A stretch of DNA of 56,223 bases from contig PMDZ01000008.1 of assembly GCA_003155695.1 (NCBI GenBank), positions 103,362 through 159,584 of the forward strand, given 5' to 3'. Within the stretch, counting starts at the first letter, position 1. Every line of letters starts with the position of its first letter. The notes beneath the pieces were generated by a model. That model had not been told where the DNA came from, searched no databases, and was given only the letters and a program-made list of their open reading frames with translations. The position numbers were made by a program, and so were the translations under genes. Of this stretch, positions 42,715-53,687 are shown piece by piece. Source of the stretch: Candidatus Nomurabacteria bacterium. Lineage in GTDB: Bacteria; Patescibacteriota; Minisyncoccia; Phycocordibacterales; UBA9973.

Positions 42715-45639
42715 CTAGACGACTATGTTTACAATCCTTCCCGGAACATAGATGATTCTTTTTGTAGTTTTATTTTCTATCCAAGTGATTATGTTCTTAT
42801 TATTAAGGGCTATTTTCTTGACTTCATCTTCTTGCATATCTCTCGAAATCATAATTTCGGCACGGACTTTTCCGTTTACCTGTACGGCTATTTTTATTTC
42901 TTCTTCTATAATTTTCTTTTCATCCCACTTCGGCCAAGTACTTTTATTGATTGATTGTCTTTCTCCCAATAAATTCCATAATTCTTCAGTTATATGTGGA
43001 GCAAAAGGCGAAAGTATTTGTAGAAACATTTTGAAATCATTCTTGCTTATTTCGGATTTTTCCCCTCCGTCGTCAGGACTCTGGCGGGCAAGCATTTCGT
43101 TGACTAAAACCATCATGGCAGAAACCGCCGTATTGAAACTCATTGATTCAATGTCCTCGGAAACTTTTTTAATGGTCTTGTGTAGAAGAGTTTGAAACGA
43201 AGCAGAAACAGATAAATTCTTCGTCGTGTCGGAGCCCTTTAGGGTAAAGCGCGAAGAATTTATCTGTTTCTGTGTAGTGATTTTCATTCCTATCTTCCAA
43301 ACTTTTTCCAAAAATCTTCGAGAACCGATAATACTGTCAGTATTCCAAACAGCAGTTTGATCAAATGGACCCATAAACATTTCATAAAGTCGCAAAGTAT
43401 CGGCGCCATAAGTTTTCACAATATCGTCTGGATTAACAATATTACCAAAACGTTTAGACATTTTTCTTCCATCCTCACCAATAATTAAACCGACAGATTG
43501 TAACTTCTTGAATGGTTCAAGAGTTGAAACAACTCCAATATCATAAAGGAATTTGTGCCAAAAACGAGCATAGATCAAATGCCTTGTGGCATGTTCAGCT
43601 CCACCGACATAAAAATCGACTTGATTCCAATATTTTTCCTTTTTCTTATCAACTAAAGCTTTATCGTTTTTGGGATCCATATAACGCAAGTAATACCACG
43701 AACTTCCAGCCCATTGAGGCATTGTATTGGTTTCGCGTTTCATTATTTTTGCATTTTTGCCTTTACCAACTTTAACATTTACCCAACTCGGTATATTTGC
43801 CAACGGAGACTCCCCTGTACCAGTCGGTTCATAGGATTTTACTCTAGGTAAAATAACCGGTAAATCTTTTTCTTTAATGGGAACAATTTTGTCGCCATCA
43901 TGTAAGACAGGAATTGGTTCTCCCCAATAACGTTGCCTGGAAAACACCCAATCACGAAGCTTATATTTTGTAACCATCTTTCCTCCAACAAATTCTGTAA
44001 TTTTCTTTCGTGCTTCTTTAGAAGTCATCTCATTGAATTTACCAGAATTTATTAAAATTCCATCATCGGTAAAACAATCGTTATTTGTGTTTAATCGTGC
44101 AAGTACAATATCCAACTCAGAATGAGACATTCTATCTCGAGTAATATCTTTAAAATCAATCCAAGCAACTTCATGTTTTTCAGCTTCTTCTGGTGCCAAA
44201 GAATCATGTTCTTCATTTTCTAATTCAAAATACATGCAAGTGTTATGAGCTATACGATTTTCTCCCTTATGACCTGCATAAAATTCCGAATGGATCGGCC
44301 CTCCAAGTATGCGTACTAATTTTAAATTTTTATATCCGGTTTCCTCATAAATTTCTCGACGTGCTGCCGTTTCAGAATCCTCATTCCCTTCTATTCCTCC
44401 AATGACAAAAGTTGTCCACCTTGGTTTTTTAGTCTCAAGCACTAAATATTTTCCAGTTTTTGGATTCTTAATAACAGCAAGGATAATATTTCTGAAGACA
44501 GTTTCTTTCCCGGGTTGCGGTGGGTTTTTTTCATCAATTCTAATTGGAATCACAACATCCTTAATAGGCAAATTATATTTCTTAGCGAATTCAAAATCTC
44601 TTTCATCATGTGCCGGCACAGCCATAACCGCTCCGGTTCCATATGATGCAAGGACATAATCGGCAATCCAGACAGGAATTTCCTCATTATTTGCAGGATT
44701 TATAGCTTTTACTCCTTTTAACAAAACCCCAGTCTTTGTTTTTTCTTCGGCAGTTCTTTCAATATTTGTTTTTGTTTTAACTAATTTTATATATTTTTCT
44801 ACTTCTCCCCAATTCGAAATTTGTTTTTTTAATTTATTTATCAATTCATGTTCTGGAGCAAGGACTACATATGTTGCCCCAAAAATAGTATCAGCACGGG
44901 TTGTAAATACTTTAATTTTATCCTTTAAATTTTTAACCGGGAATTCTATTTCACTTCCTTCACTTTTCCCTATCCAGTTTTTTTGACTTTCTTTAATTGA
45001 TAGAGGCCAATCTAGTGAATCTAAGTCCTTAAGTAATCTCTCGGCATAATCTGTAATACGAAGAACCCATTGACGCATAGGCTTCTGTTCAACAACAGTG
45101 CCACAGCGTTCACATTTACCGTCTTCAACATCTTCATTGGCCAAACCGGTTTTGCAAGAAGGACACCAATTTATTGGTTCATACGATTCATAAGCTAAAC
45201 CTTTTTCTAAAAGTTTTAAAAATATCCACTGTGTCCATTTATAAAATTTTGGATCGGTTGTATTTACTTCTCTAGACCAATCATAATCAAATCCAAGTAT
45301 TTCTAATTGCTTCTTAAAACGAATAACATTTTTAGGGATCGAGACTGCAGGATTGGTTTTAGTCTTAAGAGCATAATTCTCAGCCGGGAGGCCAAAAGCA
45401 TCAAAACCCATAGGATGCATAACGTTTGCTCCTTGCATTCTTTTCATTCGAGATATGACATCAGTAGCAATATAACCTTTGGGATGCCCAACATGAAGAC
45501 CCTCACCAGAAAGATATGGAAACATATCAAGGACATAATATTTGGGCTTTTGGGAAGAATCTAGTGTTCTATATATCCTTTTCTTATCCCAATCTTTTTG
45601 CCATTTATTTTCAATTTTCTTGTGGTCGTACGTTTTCAT
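42715..45639 (-). CDS. leuS: Leucyl-tRNA synthetase with inserted Nudix domain
   Basis: MFPYLSGEGLHVGHPKGYIATDVISRMKRM; DGRKMSKRFGNIVNPDDIV; Nudix box GGIEGNEDSETAARREIYEETGY inside. Confidence 0.95.
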   Translation of the reverse strand: MKTYDHKKIENKWQKDWDKKRIYRTLDSSQKPKYYVLDMFPYLSGEGLHVGHPKGYIATDVISRMKRMQGANVMHPMGFDAFGLPAENYALKTKTNPAVSIPKNVIRFKKQLEILGFDYDWSREVNTTDPKFYKWTQWIFLKLLEKGLAYESYEPINWCPSCKTGLANEDVEDGKCERCGTVVEQKPMRQWVLRITDYAERLLKDLDSLDWPLSIKESQKNWIGKSEGSEIEFPVKNLKDKIKVFTTRADTIFGATYVVLAPEHELINKLKKQISNWGEVEKYIKLVKTKTNIERTAEEKTKTGVLLKGVKAINPANNEEIPVWIADYVLASYGTGAVMAVPAHDERDFEFAKKYNLPIKDVVIPIRIDEKNPPQPGKETVFRNIILAVIKNPKTGKYLVLETKKPRWTTFVIGGIEGNEDSETAARREIYEETGYKNLKLVRILGGPIHSEFYAGHKGENRIAHNTCMYFELENEEHDSLAPEEAEKHEVAWIDFKDITRDRMSHSELDIVLARLNTNNDCFTDDGILINSGKFNEMTSKEARKKITEFVGGKMVTKYKLRDWVFSRQRYWGEPIPVLHDGDKIVPIKEKDLPVILPRVKSYEPTGTGESPLANIPSWVNVKVGKGKNAKIMKRETNTMPQWAGSSWYYLRYMDPKNDKALVDKKKEKYWNQVDFYVGGAEHATRHLIYARFWHKFLYDIGVVSTLEPFKKLQSVGLIIGEDGRKMSKRFGNIVNPDDIVKTYGADTLRLYEMFMGPFDQTAVWNTDSIIGSRRFLEKVWKIGMKITTQKQINSSRFTLKGSDTTKNLSVSASFQTLLHKTIKKVSEDIESMSFNTAVSAMMVLVNEMLARQSPDDGGEKSEISKNDFKMFLQILSPFAPHITEELWNLLGERQSINKSTWPKWDEKKIIEEEIKIAVQVNGKVRAEIMISRDMQEDEVKKIALNNKNIITWIENKTTKRIIYVPGRIVNIVV
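43203..43272. repeat. 70-nt in-frame palindromic element in leuS
   Basis: 21-bp perfect arms CAGAAACAGATAAATTCTTCG/CGAAGAATTTATCTGTTTCTG with a 28-nt interior. Confidence 0.9.
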
Positions 45640-48798: not shown

Positions 48799-49284
48799 TT
48801 AGTTTAAGAAACCAATGGAATTTAAAAAATCATCAGGTCTCTTTGTATGTTTGACACTAAGATTAGAACAAACATCTGGTATTTTTTATAATAAATCATT
48901 ATTTGTTTTATAAGTTTCCCTTGAAAAAACGGCTTTTTTATTATTTAAAGAAAAAGCTATTATATATGTATCAACTGTGGATTTATGAGTTGCTTGATCT
49001 ATCATTGGATATTGATTATTTATCTCAATTGCTTTGTCTCTATCATCATCAGTTATGTTCGTAACTAAACCTGCACTTTTCATTTTTTTACACCAATCTA
49101 CTAGTGGCTTAGGATGAGTAATCTCCTTAATAACAACGTCTAATAAAATCCATTTCTTTTCTTGCAATGCTATTTCTAAGTTATTCCAAAAAATTTTATT
49201 CAAACTAATTGGAACCCAAGTATGAAAACCAATAAGGGTGTTAGCATCTATAACATATTCTGCTGTTATAGGGTTACTAATCAT
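48799..49284 (-). pseudogene. DUF4411/PIN-like toxin interrupted by an in-frame TAA at 48886-48888
   Basis: ORF ends ..VFSRETYKTNNDLL* and the same frame continues KIPDVCSNLSVKHTKRPDDFLNSIGFLN*, matching the expected C-terminus of the family. Confidence 0.75.
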
Positions 49285-50407
49285 ATTTTTCTACAGAAAA
49301 TCTGAGTAATTTTGAAGCTTCAATATAGTTTATTTTGTTTTCCAAATAAGAATTTGAGACCACCTTATTAAACAAATCACCATTAGAGTCCTTCATATTA
49401 TTATTAAAGTCCCCACCAGAACTTTTTTTGTTCTTTCCATTTATGATATTTTGATTGGTTTCTCTTTTTATTTCATCCTCTAAATTCTTTTCGTCTTCTT
49501 TTTTAATTTTTCCTAAATCTTTTAACCGATAAAATACAAATATCCTACTTAGTTTATATGTTTCAGCTAAAGAACTAATATCATTTTTTGTATAATATTT
49601 TTTATTAAATTCAGTTTCTGGTAAAAGAAATTCAGCAGAAACTCTATTACAAAAAGTCTCTTCTTTATCTATTTTACTATTTGATTTTCTAAAATCTAAA
49701 CTATTAGATATCCCTTCACTTTTTCTGAAGAGGTGTGCTAATTCGTGTATAAATGAAAAAATCTGAGCTGATAGTGCATCTTTTCTATTTAAAATAATAA
49801 AAGGGGCATAGTCGTTTGAAATAAAAATACCTCTCATATCATCAACTTCTATTTTATGATAAGAAATAGTTTTACCAACAAATACACCATTTTCTTCAAT
49901 TTTATTTATTAAATATTTAAGAACCTTTCGTCTTGAGTCTTGTCCAGAGATACTTTTTATTTTCTGGAAATCTATATTCAATGTCTTCTTGATAAATTCA
50001 GCCAACCTTTTTGGATCAGAAATATCTTTACCGCTACCTTGCAGTATATTTTTATTAATCCCTTCTGATTTAAATTTATTTTCTAACCATTCTTGTCTTT
50101 TAATAGTAATATTAATAAGTTTTTTGACATCACTATTATCTTCTTTATCAATTCCAACTCTATAATCTGGCAACTTTTTATATACCTCTATTTTATTAGT
50201 AGAAAAAAATACCAATTCTGGAATATTATATATTTTAGATAACTTATCTATTTTAGACCAAGTTGGAAGAGATTTTCCACTTTCCCAATCAAGAACGATA
50301 TTCTTATCAGATGAGGATATTTTTTTAGAAACATCTAAAGTACTTAGCCCAATATTTTCACGAGCTATCTTAAGATTATCCTTATTTATAGATTTAACAT
50401 ACCCCAT
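49277..50407 (-). CDS. XRE HTH plus ImmA/IrrE metallopeptidase protein (antitoxin-like partner)
   Basis: HTH NLKIARENIGLSTLDVSKKISSSDKNIVLDWESGKSLPTWSKIDKLSKIY; HExxH in FSFIHELAHLFRKSEG; overlaps the toxin gene by 8 nt. Confidence 0.9.
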   Translation of the reverse strand: MGYVKSINKDNLKIARENIGLSTLDVSKKISSSDKNIVLDWESGKSLPTWSKIDKLSKIYNIPELVFFSTNKIEVYKKLPDYRVGIDKEDNSDVKKLINITIKRQEWLENKFKSEGINKNILQGSGKDISDPKRLAEFIKKTLNIDFQKIKSISGQDSRRKVLKYLINKIEENGVFVGKTISYHKIEVDDMRGIFISNDYAPFIILNRKDALSAQIFSFIHELAHLFRKSEGISNSLDFRKSNSKIDKEETFCNRVSAEFLLPETEFNKKYYTKNDISSLAETYKLSRIFVFYRLKDLGKIKKEDEKNLEDEIKRETNQNIINGKNKKSSGGDFNNNMKDSNGDLFNKVVSNSYLENKINYIEASKLLRFSVEKYD

Positions 50408-50592: not shown

Positions 50593-51372
50593 TTAAAAAG
50601 ATGACAGCCATTTAAGAAAAAAATTTACTTCTTTTTGGCTATTTAAATACCATTTTGCCGAACTCTTAACTTTTTTACCTACACGGATAGTAATTCCATT
50701 TTTCTTTAGAGATAAAAAGGCATCTTCATCTGTTTGTCCATCTCCAATGTAAATCGGTGTAAATTTTTTATGAAATTTATTTTTTAGTTTTTTTAAAACT
50801 AAAAGGCTCGCTGTTCCTTTGTTTACTTTCATCAAAGGAAATAATTCAAATGTTTTTTTATCCAAACGTGCTTCGAGAAGACCTTCGTGATTAATTTCCT
50901 TCTGAATTTTTTTGAAAATACATTCAAGAGGACGAATCTGGTTTTTTTTAATCAGTCGATATCCTAAAGCTAGAGAATATTTTTTATCTTCAAATATTAT
51001 CTCCGGGTATATTTTACATATTTTTATTAATTCTTTCTTTGCTTTTAATAAAGCATTTTTTGTATCAATAGATAGAGGCACAACTTCATATTTTTTATTT
51101 AAACTATGCTCTAACCCATGATTTCCAATATAAAGGATATTTTTTATATTCACTTTCTTTTTTATGTCACTTAATTTTCTACCCGTAATAATGACGACGG
51201 GGATTTGTGGTGCAATTTTTCCAAGGTTATCTTTGGTGGTCTTAGGCAAAAATGCTTGATTGGGATTTTTTGCTAAGGGAGAAAGTGTTAAATCAAAATC
51301 GAGCAATAATGCAAGATTATGTTTTTTGAGCCTGTTTTTAATATTTGGAAGGTCTTTAAATACATATTTCAT
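50593..51372 (-). CDS. otsB: Trehalose-6-phosphate phosphatase
   Basis: ALLLDFDLTLSPLAKNP; VVIITGRKLSDIKKKV; YIGDGQTDEDAFLSLKKNGITIRVG. Confidence 0.92.
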   Translation of the reverse strand: MKYVFKDLPNIKNRLKKHNLALLLDFDLTLSPLAKNPNQAFLPKTTKDNLGKIAPQIPVVIITGRKLSDIKKKVNIKNILYIGNHGLEHSLNKKYEVVPLSIDTKNALLKAKKELIKICKIYPEIIFEDKKYSLALGYRLIKKNQIRPLECIFKKIQKEINHEGLLEARLDKKTFELFPLMKVNKGTASLLVLKKLKNKFHKKFTPIYIGDGQTDEDAFLSLKKNGITIRVGKKVKSSAKWYLNSQKEVNFFLKWLSSF

Positions 51373-51375
51373 ATT

Positions 51376-53616
51376 CTAACTTAGATTTGTTACTGCTCTG
51401 ATAAATTCTGCGGACCAACGATAGACATTGTAATTTTTAACAGCCTCTCTCATTTTTTTCATTCTTTTCTGTTTTTCCGGTAATGTCATATTTAGTGCAG
51501 TATTTATTGCCTCAGATGTTTCTTCGGCACTATATGGATTTACAATTATGGCGCCCTTAAGATCTCGAACAGCTCCGGTAAATTTGCTCAATATCAAAAC
51601 TCCATTTTCATCGTCTCGTGCTGCGACATATTCTTTTGCTACCAGATTCATACCGTCATGTAAAGAGGTTACCATACAAACGTCAGCAACCTTAAAAAGA
51701 GGACCTAGCTCTTCATGTGAATGGTGTTTCCTTACAAGAACAATAGGTTCCCATGTTTTTGTTTTAAATTTATCATTTATGCGTTCGGCTTCTTTTATTA
51801 CTTCTTCACTAAACTGTTTATATTTTGGGACACTTTCACGGCTTGGTGACGCTATTTGTAAAAATGTAAAGTTCTCTTTGTAAGTTGGGTACGTATCAAG
51901 AAAAAATTCTATGGCTTTGAATCTTTCAAGTAATCCTTTTGTGTAGTCCATTCGATCAACACCAAAACCAACATATTTGGTATGTATATCCAATTTCTCT
52001 AAAAATTTTTTTCCGGTATTTGCATCATACAAGATATCATTATCACTACCGGTAAAAGCGATACTAATAGGAAATGATTTGATATAACTGGTGTGATTTC
52101 GATATGTTACCGCAAATTGCTCAAGGTCGCATAATGATTCCATTTCCTTGCCGACGGTATTTATAAAATTATTACAAAATTGTTGAATGTGGAAACCAAT
52201 GATATCGGCCCCGAGCATTCCTTGTAATATTTCATTCCGCCAAGGACAGACACCGAATGCTTCCGGACTTGGCCATGGTATATGCCAAAATATGCCTATT
52301 TGAGCATCAGGTCTTTTTATTTTTATTATATGGGGTAAAAGTGCTAAATGAAAATCTTGGATTAAAATAAGTGGATTCGGAACATCTTTTATTTCCTCCA
52401 ATACATTTTTTGCAAATATTTCATTTACTTTTTTGTATTCATGCCAGTCTTCTTTTCTGAAAAGAGGACGAGTATGGACCATATGGCAAAGTGGCCATAT
52501 GGCCTCATTTGAAAATCCTTTATAAAAACCGTCTACTTCTTTTTCGGAAAGCCAAATTCTTTTTAAAGTATATTTGGGTTCTTGGATAGGAACTTTAATT
52601 TTATTGTCTTTATCTACAGTCTGCTTATCTGCATCTCCGCTTCCCCAAGCAATCCAAGTACCACCACAAGCCTCTACCACTGGCTCGATAGCGGTAATCA
52701 TTCCGCTCGCCGGCACTTTATAATCTATCTTCCCTTTTAAATTATAGTGTTCATAAGGTTCACGATTTGAAACAACAAAAATAGGTCTGTCTTTAAGGTG
52801 TGCCTTGGTAAATTCAGACAAACGTTCTGCTGTCCATGGAGTATCAAGTTTTTCCAAACGCATCCGCGCTTCTTCTTTGGCTGATAAGCGTGCCTGCGAG
52901 AGACTTTTAGTAATGTAAGTGATTTCTTTAGCAAGAGGAGTAAAGAAAGAATACTTGCCGTCGGTCTTAAAAGCTTCATTAACTCCTCCCATACGGACCT
53001 TTTTGGCAGATTCAACCAAGCGCAAGACTTGACGGAAAACAAAAAATCTTAAGATTATAAAAATAGTAATGGAAAATATTATTATCTGAATAAGTAATCG
53101 CAATAGATTTCCTTTCCAGATTTGATTGATGTCGGTATTTATATATCCCGCATTCTGCACAACCATCAGCGCTCCGACGATACTTTCTTCGTTGTGCAAC
53201 GGGTCAACATGCACATAGCGTGTCTCTCCGTCGGCATCCAAAAAATTATCATTAAATTTATTGCTATCCATCGCTTCGGAAACTATTCCCCCGTTTCCAA
53301 TAATTGCTTTAGGAAGTCCCATAGAGCTTGCAATAAGCACTCCTTGGGTATCATATAGGGCAATACCAACTATGCGTTCACGATTGGCGAATTTATCCAC
53401 AATTTTTTGAAGTGAAGTTTTAAGTGAAGCTTGCGAGGAATTGGCATAGTATGGCTCAACTGATTCTTTCAAACTGTCCGAGAGTAATGAAGCTCGTTGT
53501 TCCAGATTAGTCGTCAATGTTGCTCTCTCCTGATTTACTTGCTTAAAACTAAAACCAAGCGCAACCAAACTTACAGCCAAGACAACAGTACCGATAATAG
53601 TTAATATATACCGCAT
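51376..53616 (-). CDS. otsA: Membrane-anchored trehalose-6-phosphate synthase with N-terminal sensor-like module
   Basis: C-terminal GT20 motifs (FWHIPWPSPEAFGVCPWRNEIL, GVDRMDYTKGLLERFKAIEFF, SLHDGMNLVAKEYVAAR); N-terminus has two TM segments flanking an extracytoplasmic domain. Confidence 0.93.
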   Translation of the reverse strand: MRYILTIIGTVVLAVSLVALGFSFKQVNQERATLTTNLEQRASLLSDSLKESVEPYYANSSQASLKTSLQKIVDKFANRERIVGIALYDTQGVLIASSMGLPKAIIGNGGIVSEAMDSNKFNDNFLDADGETRYVHVDPLHNEESIVGALMVVQNAGYINTDINQIWKGNLLRLLIQIIIFSITIFIILRFFVFRQVLRLVESAKKVRMGGVNEAFKTDGKYSFFTPLAKEITYITKSLSQARLSAKEEARMRLEKLDTPWTAERLSEFTKAHLKDRPIFVVSNREPYEHYNLKGKIDYKVPASGMITAIEPVVEACGGTWIAWGSGDADKQTVDKDNKIKVPIQEPKYTLKRIWLSEKEVDGFYKGFSNEAIWPLCHMVHTRPLFRKEDWHEYKKVNEIFAKNVLEEIKDVPNPLILIQDFHLALLPHIIKIKRPDAQIGIFWHIPWPSPEAFGVCPWRNEILQGMLGADIIGFHIQQFCNNFINTVGKEMESLCDLEQFAVTYRNHTSYIKSFPISIAFTGSDNDILYDANTGKKFLEKLDIHTKYVGFGVDRMDYTKGLLERFKAIEFFLDTYPTYKENFTFLQIASPSRESVPKYKQFSEEVIKEAERINDKFKTKTWEPIVLVRKHHSHEELGPLFKVADVCMVTSLHDGMNLVAKEYVAARDDENGVLILSKFTGAVRDLKGAIIVNPYSAEETSEAINTALNMTLPEKQKRMKKMREAVKNYNVYRWSAEFIRAVTNLS

Positions 53617-53687
53617 AATTGTTCATTATATCACATAAATTAAACTTGTATAGTGGAGGAGGAATTTTAATAGAAAATCTGCAACCG

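Follow-up and report, generated by a model that had tools for sequence, protein, structure and literature searches.

The window, a 56,223-nucleotide stretch of DNA, carries a sensor-type trehalose-6-phosphate (T6P) synthase gene, in which a membrane-sensor N-terminus is fused to a GT20 domain. The gene is a single open reading frame of 746 codons at positions 51376–53616 on the minus strand (the strand of every feature of the window described below), with an ATG at 53616. Its first 255 codons are the segment in which the original prediction had placed a transmembrane sensor module; the peptides quoted there are found in the 746-residue frame, and the proposed fusion is confirmed as one continuous gene. 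The extra part preceding the GT20 domain comprises approximately 278 residues, with two transmembrane (TM) segments and a Cache-like domain. We consider it probable, with some reserve, that the product is a membrane-bound receptor-type T6P synthase, in which a cue at the Cache domain passes through a helical linker to set the GT20 activity.

In the proposed mechanism, the Cache domain outside the cell would bind or sense a cue. The synthase may act as a dimer, by analogy with Cache receptors, and a change in the cue would shift TM2 and the conserved linker helices. This shift would regulate the cytoplasmic GT20 domain, whether by switching it on or off. The GT20 domain would transfer glucose to glucose-6-phosphate from a nucleotide-sugar donor, and OtsB would strip the phosphate to yield trehalose. 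From the anatomy of the protein and its conservation, we soundly infer a probable direct extracellular control of trehalose synthesis, as had been proposed. We favor the receptor reading because every close fused homolog has two TM segments flanking a Cache-like domain, and because similarity to WalK, an invariant active site, a constrained sensor, a conserved linker and a single fused clade coincide. The presence of otsB after most fused genes and of trehalose or osmotic neighbors in relatives points the same way. The reading is weakened by Cache scores below the Pfam cut-offs, a Cache domain with no assigned ligand motif, an unconfirmed HAMP domain, low model confidence in the linker, one homolog (L082) with an apparently reduced sensor, and the lack of a clear galU. 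The receptor reading lends itself readily to testing, since an enzyme activity as output can be measured.

The host is a bacterium from the candidate phyla radiation; its genome assembly spans 773 kb and is 95.7% complete, and its nearest named relatives are Candidatus Nomurabacteria/Paceibacterota. Full-length homologs from independent genomes, together with a codon-level test, ruled out a chance read-through or an assembly join.

Transmembrane segments and the Cache-like domain

Hydropathy analysis revealed exactly two TM segments in the window protein, TM1 at residues 4–22 (53551–53607) and TM2 at residues 171–189 (53050–53106), which fall within helices 2–57 and 157–208 of the full-length AlphaFold2 model (mean pLDDT 78.9). 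Two TM segments lie at corresponding positions in 18 of the 18 close homologs and also in the divergent homolog L016, and this hydropathy-based prediction supports the two-TM receptor topology that had been proposed. The extracytoplasmic region of about 140 residues between them is occupied by a Cache-like domain, both in the window protein and in its close homologs. We assign residues 26–165 (53122–53541) as a putative WalK-like single Cache domain on the basis of profile matches, PDB matches and the predicted fold. The NCBIfam WalK profile NF033092 aligns collinearly over residues 5–254 (E 5e-13), and WalK extracellular domains from the PDB match the N-terminal region at 3e-4 to 4e-3, with a single sequence and equally with a 37-sequence profile. 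The window protein matches Pfam Cache_WalK at E 1.5e-4, which is under the curated gathering cut-off, and the best sCache_3_2 match among the homologs has an E of 4.9e-6.

In the full-length model, most of residues 61–165 have a pLDDT of approximately 72–85, with a dip at 141–150. The long first helix is followed by five strands within residues 82–155 (82–88, 94–97, 122–128, 131–139 and 149–155) and by the second long helix. This predicted helix–strand order is that expected for a single Cache domain. A separate N-terminal model built from 8 sequences has WalK as its best Foldseek match, followed by roadblock proteins, and, with a pLDDT of 50, contributes weak support. Since none of the matches passes a Pfam gathering cut-off, the Cache call depends on the agreement of several weak matches with one another and with the predicted fold, and on these grounds the cache-like features noted in the original prediction are supported. 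The double Cache search suggested at that stage gave dCache_1 at E 0.11, below the cut-off, and the region corresponds to a single Cache domain. A double Cache domain was rejected, as about 140 residues and one five-strand module lie between the TM segments, versus two PAS-like modules of about 240 residues.

A conserved helical linker and constraint on the sensor

TM2 is followed by a helical linker at residues 190–262 (52831–53049), delineated from the AlphaFold2 model and the homolog alignment. This stretch of approximately 70 residues is the densest run of conserved positions in the N-terminal part. Glu231, Ala242, Arg243, Glu249, Ala250, Trp261 and Thr262 are invariant in 25 group-A homologs, and Arg208, Pro227 and Arg253 are nearly so. 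Such a density of invariant residues would be expected of an element that converts a signal, not of a mere spacer. The position of the linker and its two-helix layout resemble HAMP. The Pfam HAMP profile PF00672 matched 1 of the 25 homologous linkers (E 0.075) and not that of the window, and a search of the host genome yielded no HAMP at E up to 10. Because the matches are so few and so weak, we refer to this element as a conserved helical linker and not as HAMP; of the HAMP/coiled-coil-like linker originally predicted, the helical part stands and the HAMP part is unconfirmed. Model confidence is low here, with most of residues 204–256 below 50.

The sensor and the enzyme are under similarly strong purifying selection, with clearly no relaxation in the sensor. 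In comparisons of the window gene with its Nomurabacteria relatives at unsaturated synonymous sites, dN/dS was approximately 0.03–0.08 for the Cache region, 0.03–0.10 for the linker and approximately 0.04–0.09 for the enzyme; the N-terminal codons gave approximately 0.02–0.15. The ratios are rough, since many pairs approach saturation at synonymous sites.

These values bear on the main rival to the receptor-type synthase, namely a tethered enzyme whose N-terminal region does no more than hold it at the membrane, perhaps close to a mechanosensitive channel or transporter, with the Cache domain being structural or binding a partner but not acutely controlling catalysis. The acidobacterial homolog L082 (a 639-residue frame) would suit such a tether, since it has apparently lost most of the extracytoplasmic domain and retains two hydrophobic segments with little in between. 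The strong divergence of the N-terminal sequence between subgroups (13–33% identity for the window protein versus the Acidobacteriota and group B members) and the MscS-type genes that adjoin the gene or its unfused relatives also agree with tethering. Against tethering stand the strong purifying selection on the extracytoplasmic domain of about 140 residues and the high conservation of the linker, neither of which a simple anchor needs. We regard it as unlikely, though as an explanation to be taken seriously beside the receptor-type synthase.

The GT20 domain

The GT20 domain spans residues 279–743 (51388–52782). Pfam Glyco_transf_20 matches with 417.9 bits versus a cut-off of 32.5 (E 6.6e-125), covering positions 4–471 of the 473-position profile, and the domain starts at residue 279–280. 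Foldseek comparison with GT20 structures, namely E. coli OtsA (1gz5/1uqt), C. albicans Tps1 (5hut) and M. thermoresistibile 5jij, gave E values of about 1e-38 to 1e-34. The protein was aligned with the E. coli OtsA reference sequence from MG1655 at residues that we take, from OtsA structures, to be catalytic and substrate residues. Arg9, Gly22, Tyr76, Trp85, Asp130 and His154 of OtsA are kept as Arg285, Gly305, Tyr365, Trp374, Asp421 and His445 of the window protein, while Arg262, Lys267, Arg300, Asp361 and Glu369 correspond to Arg555, Lys560, Arg593, Asp654 and Glu662. The same residues are kept in nearly all fused homologs. Judged by this alignment, the active-site residues of the GT20 domain are intact.

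The TIGR02400 (OtsA) score of 442.5 bits lies under the equivalog cut-off of 564.85, and we therefore limit the assignment to a GT20 synthase whose product is most likely T6P. The score for TIGR02398 (GgpS), 322 bits, is likewise under its curated cut-off, and with both cut-offs missed the product could in principle be another phosphorylated glycoside of this kind, for instance glucosylglycerol phosphate. This is very improbable, given the preference for the OtsA model (442 versus 322 bits), the retention of the positions aligned to the glucose-6-phosphate contacts of E. coli OtsA, and a partner phosphatase that passes the T6P phosphatase cut-off. Certain TPS proteins of plants and fungi act in regulation, and by that precedent the GT20 domain might bind sugar phosphates and signal instead of synthesizing T6P; we give this hardly any credence, as every aligned catalytic and substrate residue is intact, a dedicated otsB adjoins, and the host genome has no other GT20 gene to make T6P. 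The same genome gave no GalU match above the cut-off, the best scoring 29.7 bits (locus L121).

Start codon and promoter

All 18 close Patescibacteria homologs keep the start position, 17 of them with ATG. Translation from within the frame, near Met252, would yield a soluble OtsA and leave the upstream frame outside the product, and the original prediction had named this as the finding that would count against it. A purine-rich stretch precedes Met252, and unfused sisters start near residue 261. In contrast, Met252 is replaced by Leu in several fused homologs, the N-terminal start is kept as described above, and the N-terminal part shows low dN/dS and two conserved TM segments; an internal start is therefore exceedingly improbable.

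A promoter-like site with the arrangement TATACA-16-TATAAT lies at 53625–53652, and its extended -10 element, TGTGATATAAT, ends 8 nt upstream of the ATG. No clear Shine-Dalgarno sequence precedes the ATG in the fused genes of the window (53617–53652), L036, L037, L039 and L014, and in several of these a -10 element resembling TGTG-TAxxAT lies a few bases upstream of the start codon. This arrangement suggests a transcript that is leaderless or has a very short leader.

Gene neighborhood

The gene for T6P phosphatase, otsB (50593–51372, 259 residues), begins 3 bp past the stop codon of the synthase and scores 111.6 bits with TIGR00685 against a cut-off of 68.05, bearing out its predicted position immediately downstream. 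In most fused loci, otsB directly follows the synthase. Other neighbors in relatives include a TreT gene near the synthase in L005, with similar N-termini in L007 and L009, and MGH1-like glycoside hydrolase genes in L012 and L040. In L097 the neighbors are a trehalase-like gene and, at 1–729, a gene for an MscS channel, and genes for MscS-type mechanosensitive channels adjoin unfused sisters (L041:3004–4824 and L046:2955–4295). The channel in L041 is fused to DUF5752. These neighbors support a trehalose and osmotic role for the family. The two-gene osmostress or desiccation unit of the original prediction holds in its layout and is consistent with the neighbors in relatives, and the genes flanking it in the window are uninformative: a zincin-like peptidase gene on one side and, beyond otsB, an IrrE-like/DUF4411 pair, neither of which informs the trehalose role. 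The pair adjoining otsB (48886–50407) consists of overlapping IrrE-like (Peptidase_M78) and DUF4411 genes in a toxin–antitoxin-like layout. Elsewhere in the window (42715–45639), a leucyl-tRNA synthetase gene has a NUDIX domain inserted at residues 386–505, past the editing domain according to Pfam.

Relation to known systems

The protein shares the whole GT20 fold, the active-site residues and the otsB partner with OtsA/TPS1-type synthases, whose solved structures contain the synthase alone, whereas the window protein has the additional N-terminal region with its TM segments and Cache-like domain. Its predicted order of TM1, single Cache domain, TM2 and cytoplasmic helical linker is that of the sensor histidine kinase WalK (YycG), but the output is a glycosyltransferase in place of a histidine kinase, and the HAMP domain is unconfirmed. 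Cache receptors with diguanylate cyclase, adenylate cyclase or PP2C phosphatase outputs combine receptor and enzyme in one protein (PMC4822843), as is proposed for the window protein. Their enzymatic outputs serve signaling, in contrast to the metabolic, osmolyte-making output predicted here. The N-terminal parts of 20 of 37 homologs show weak similarity to PF10144 (SMP_2/YtjB), a family of Cache-fold membrane proteins without a signaling output (PMC4822843). SMP_2/YtjB proteins stand alone without GT20, whereas the fused homologs carry it.

A survey of Cache domains found them exclusively in proteins with output signaling domains, SMP_2 apart, the outputs being kinases, chemoreceptors, cyclic-di-GMP enzymes, cyclases, phosphatases, transcription factors and ion channels (PMC4822843). 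A metabolic enzyme as a Cache output would extend beyond this range, and since the survey models were built from proteins with signaling outputs, they may have overlooked a GT20 fusion. In the open-access literature searched, no paper was found that links a T6P synthase to a Cache or HAMP domain, and domain databases may already list the Cache–GT20 architecture.

Cache domains have been called the largest extracellular sensor family in prokaryotes. If the receptor reading is true, the conserved Cache-to-GT20 fusion would be a receptor architecture that drives metabolism directly, in which an outside signal may directly switch the output of a stress-protective sugar, and it would offer a two-gene system for studying the response of tiny-genome cells to drying or osmotic shock. 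We see an even chance that the fused proteins form a one-component transmembrane receptor family, spread between Acidobacteriota and Patescibacteria, in which a Cache cue directly gates an osmolyte-making glycosyltransferase without a kinase, second messenger or transcription.

Distribution and phylogeny of the fusion

The distribution of the fused gene is patchy. Of the 380 Patescibacteria genomes sampled, 13 carry the architecture: 12 have full-length copies, including that of the window, and one has the divergent L016. Five Nomurabacteria/Paceibacterota contigs carry homologs with 77–79% identity, and the Gottesmanbacteria and Kaiserbacteria contigs carry homologs with 54–55%. None of 60 sampled relatives from the genus, family and order has a GT20 match over the cut-off, and a plasmid search with the N-terminal region gave no match. 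From the phylum to which the Aminicenantes locus L043 belongs, which we take to be Acidobacteriota, 247 genomes were sampled; the fusion is present in at least 21 of them, and two further copies are truncated (L082) or frameshifted (L091). Genomes of this sample, such as G786, G881 and G752, also contain much longer GT20 frames, of 900–1350 residues, with presumed additional domains. Among 251 Chloroflexota genomes (the phylum of the Dehalococcoidia locus L041), no match spanned both sensor and enzyme; the nearest relatives there are the unfused sisters that start near residue 261, and the remaining matches are other GT20s. The Bacillota sample comprised 6 genomes.

In the maximum-likelihood tree of GT20 domains, all 42 fused sequences, from Acidobacteriota and Patescibacteria, form one clade (97/93), whose close sisters have no sensor. 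The 19 close Patescibacteria sequences form one group (100/100) beside the acidobacterial fused forms, and L016 falls inside a second fused group. The simplest reading is a single origin of the fusion followed by at least two transfers between Acidobacteriota and Patescibacteria, probably from Acidobacteriota.
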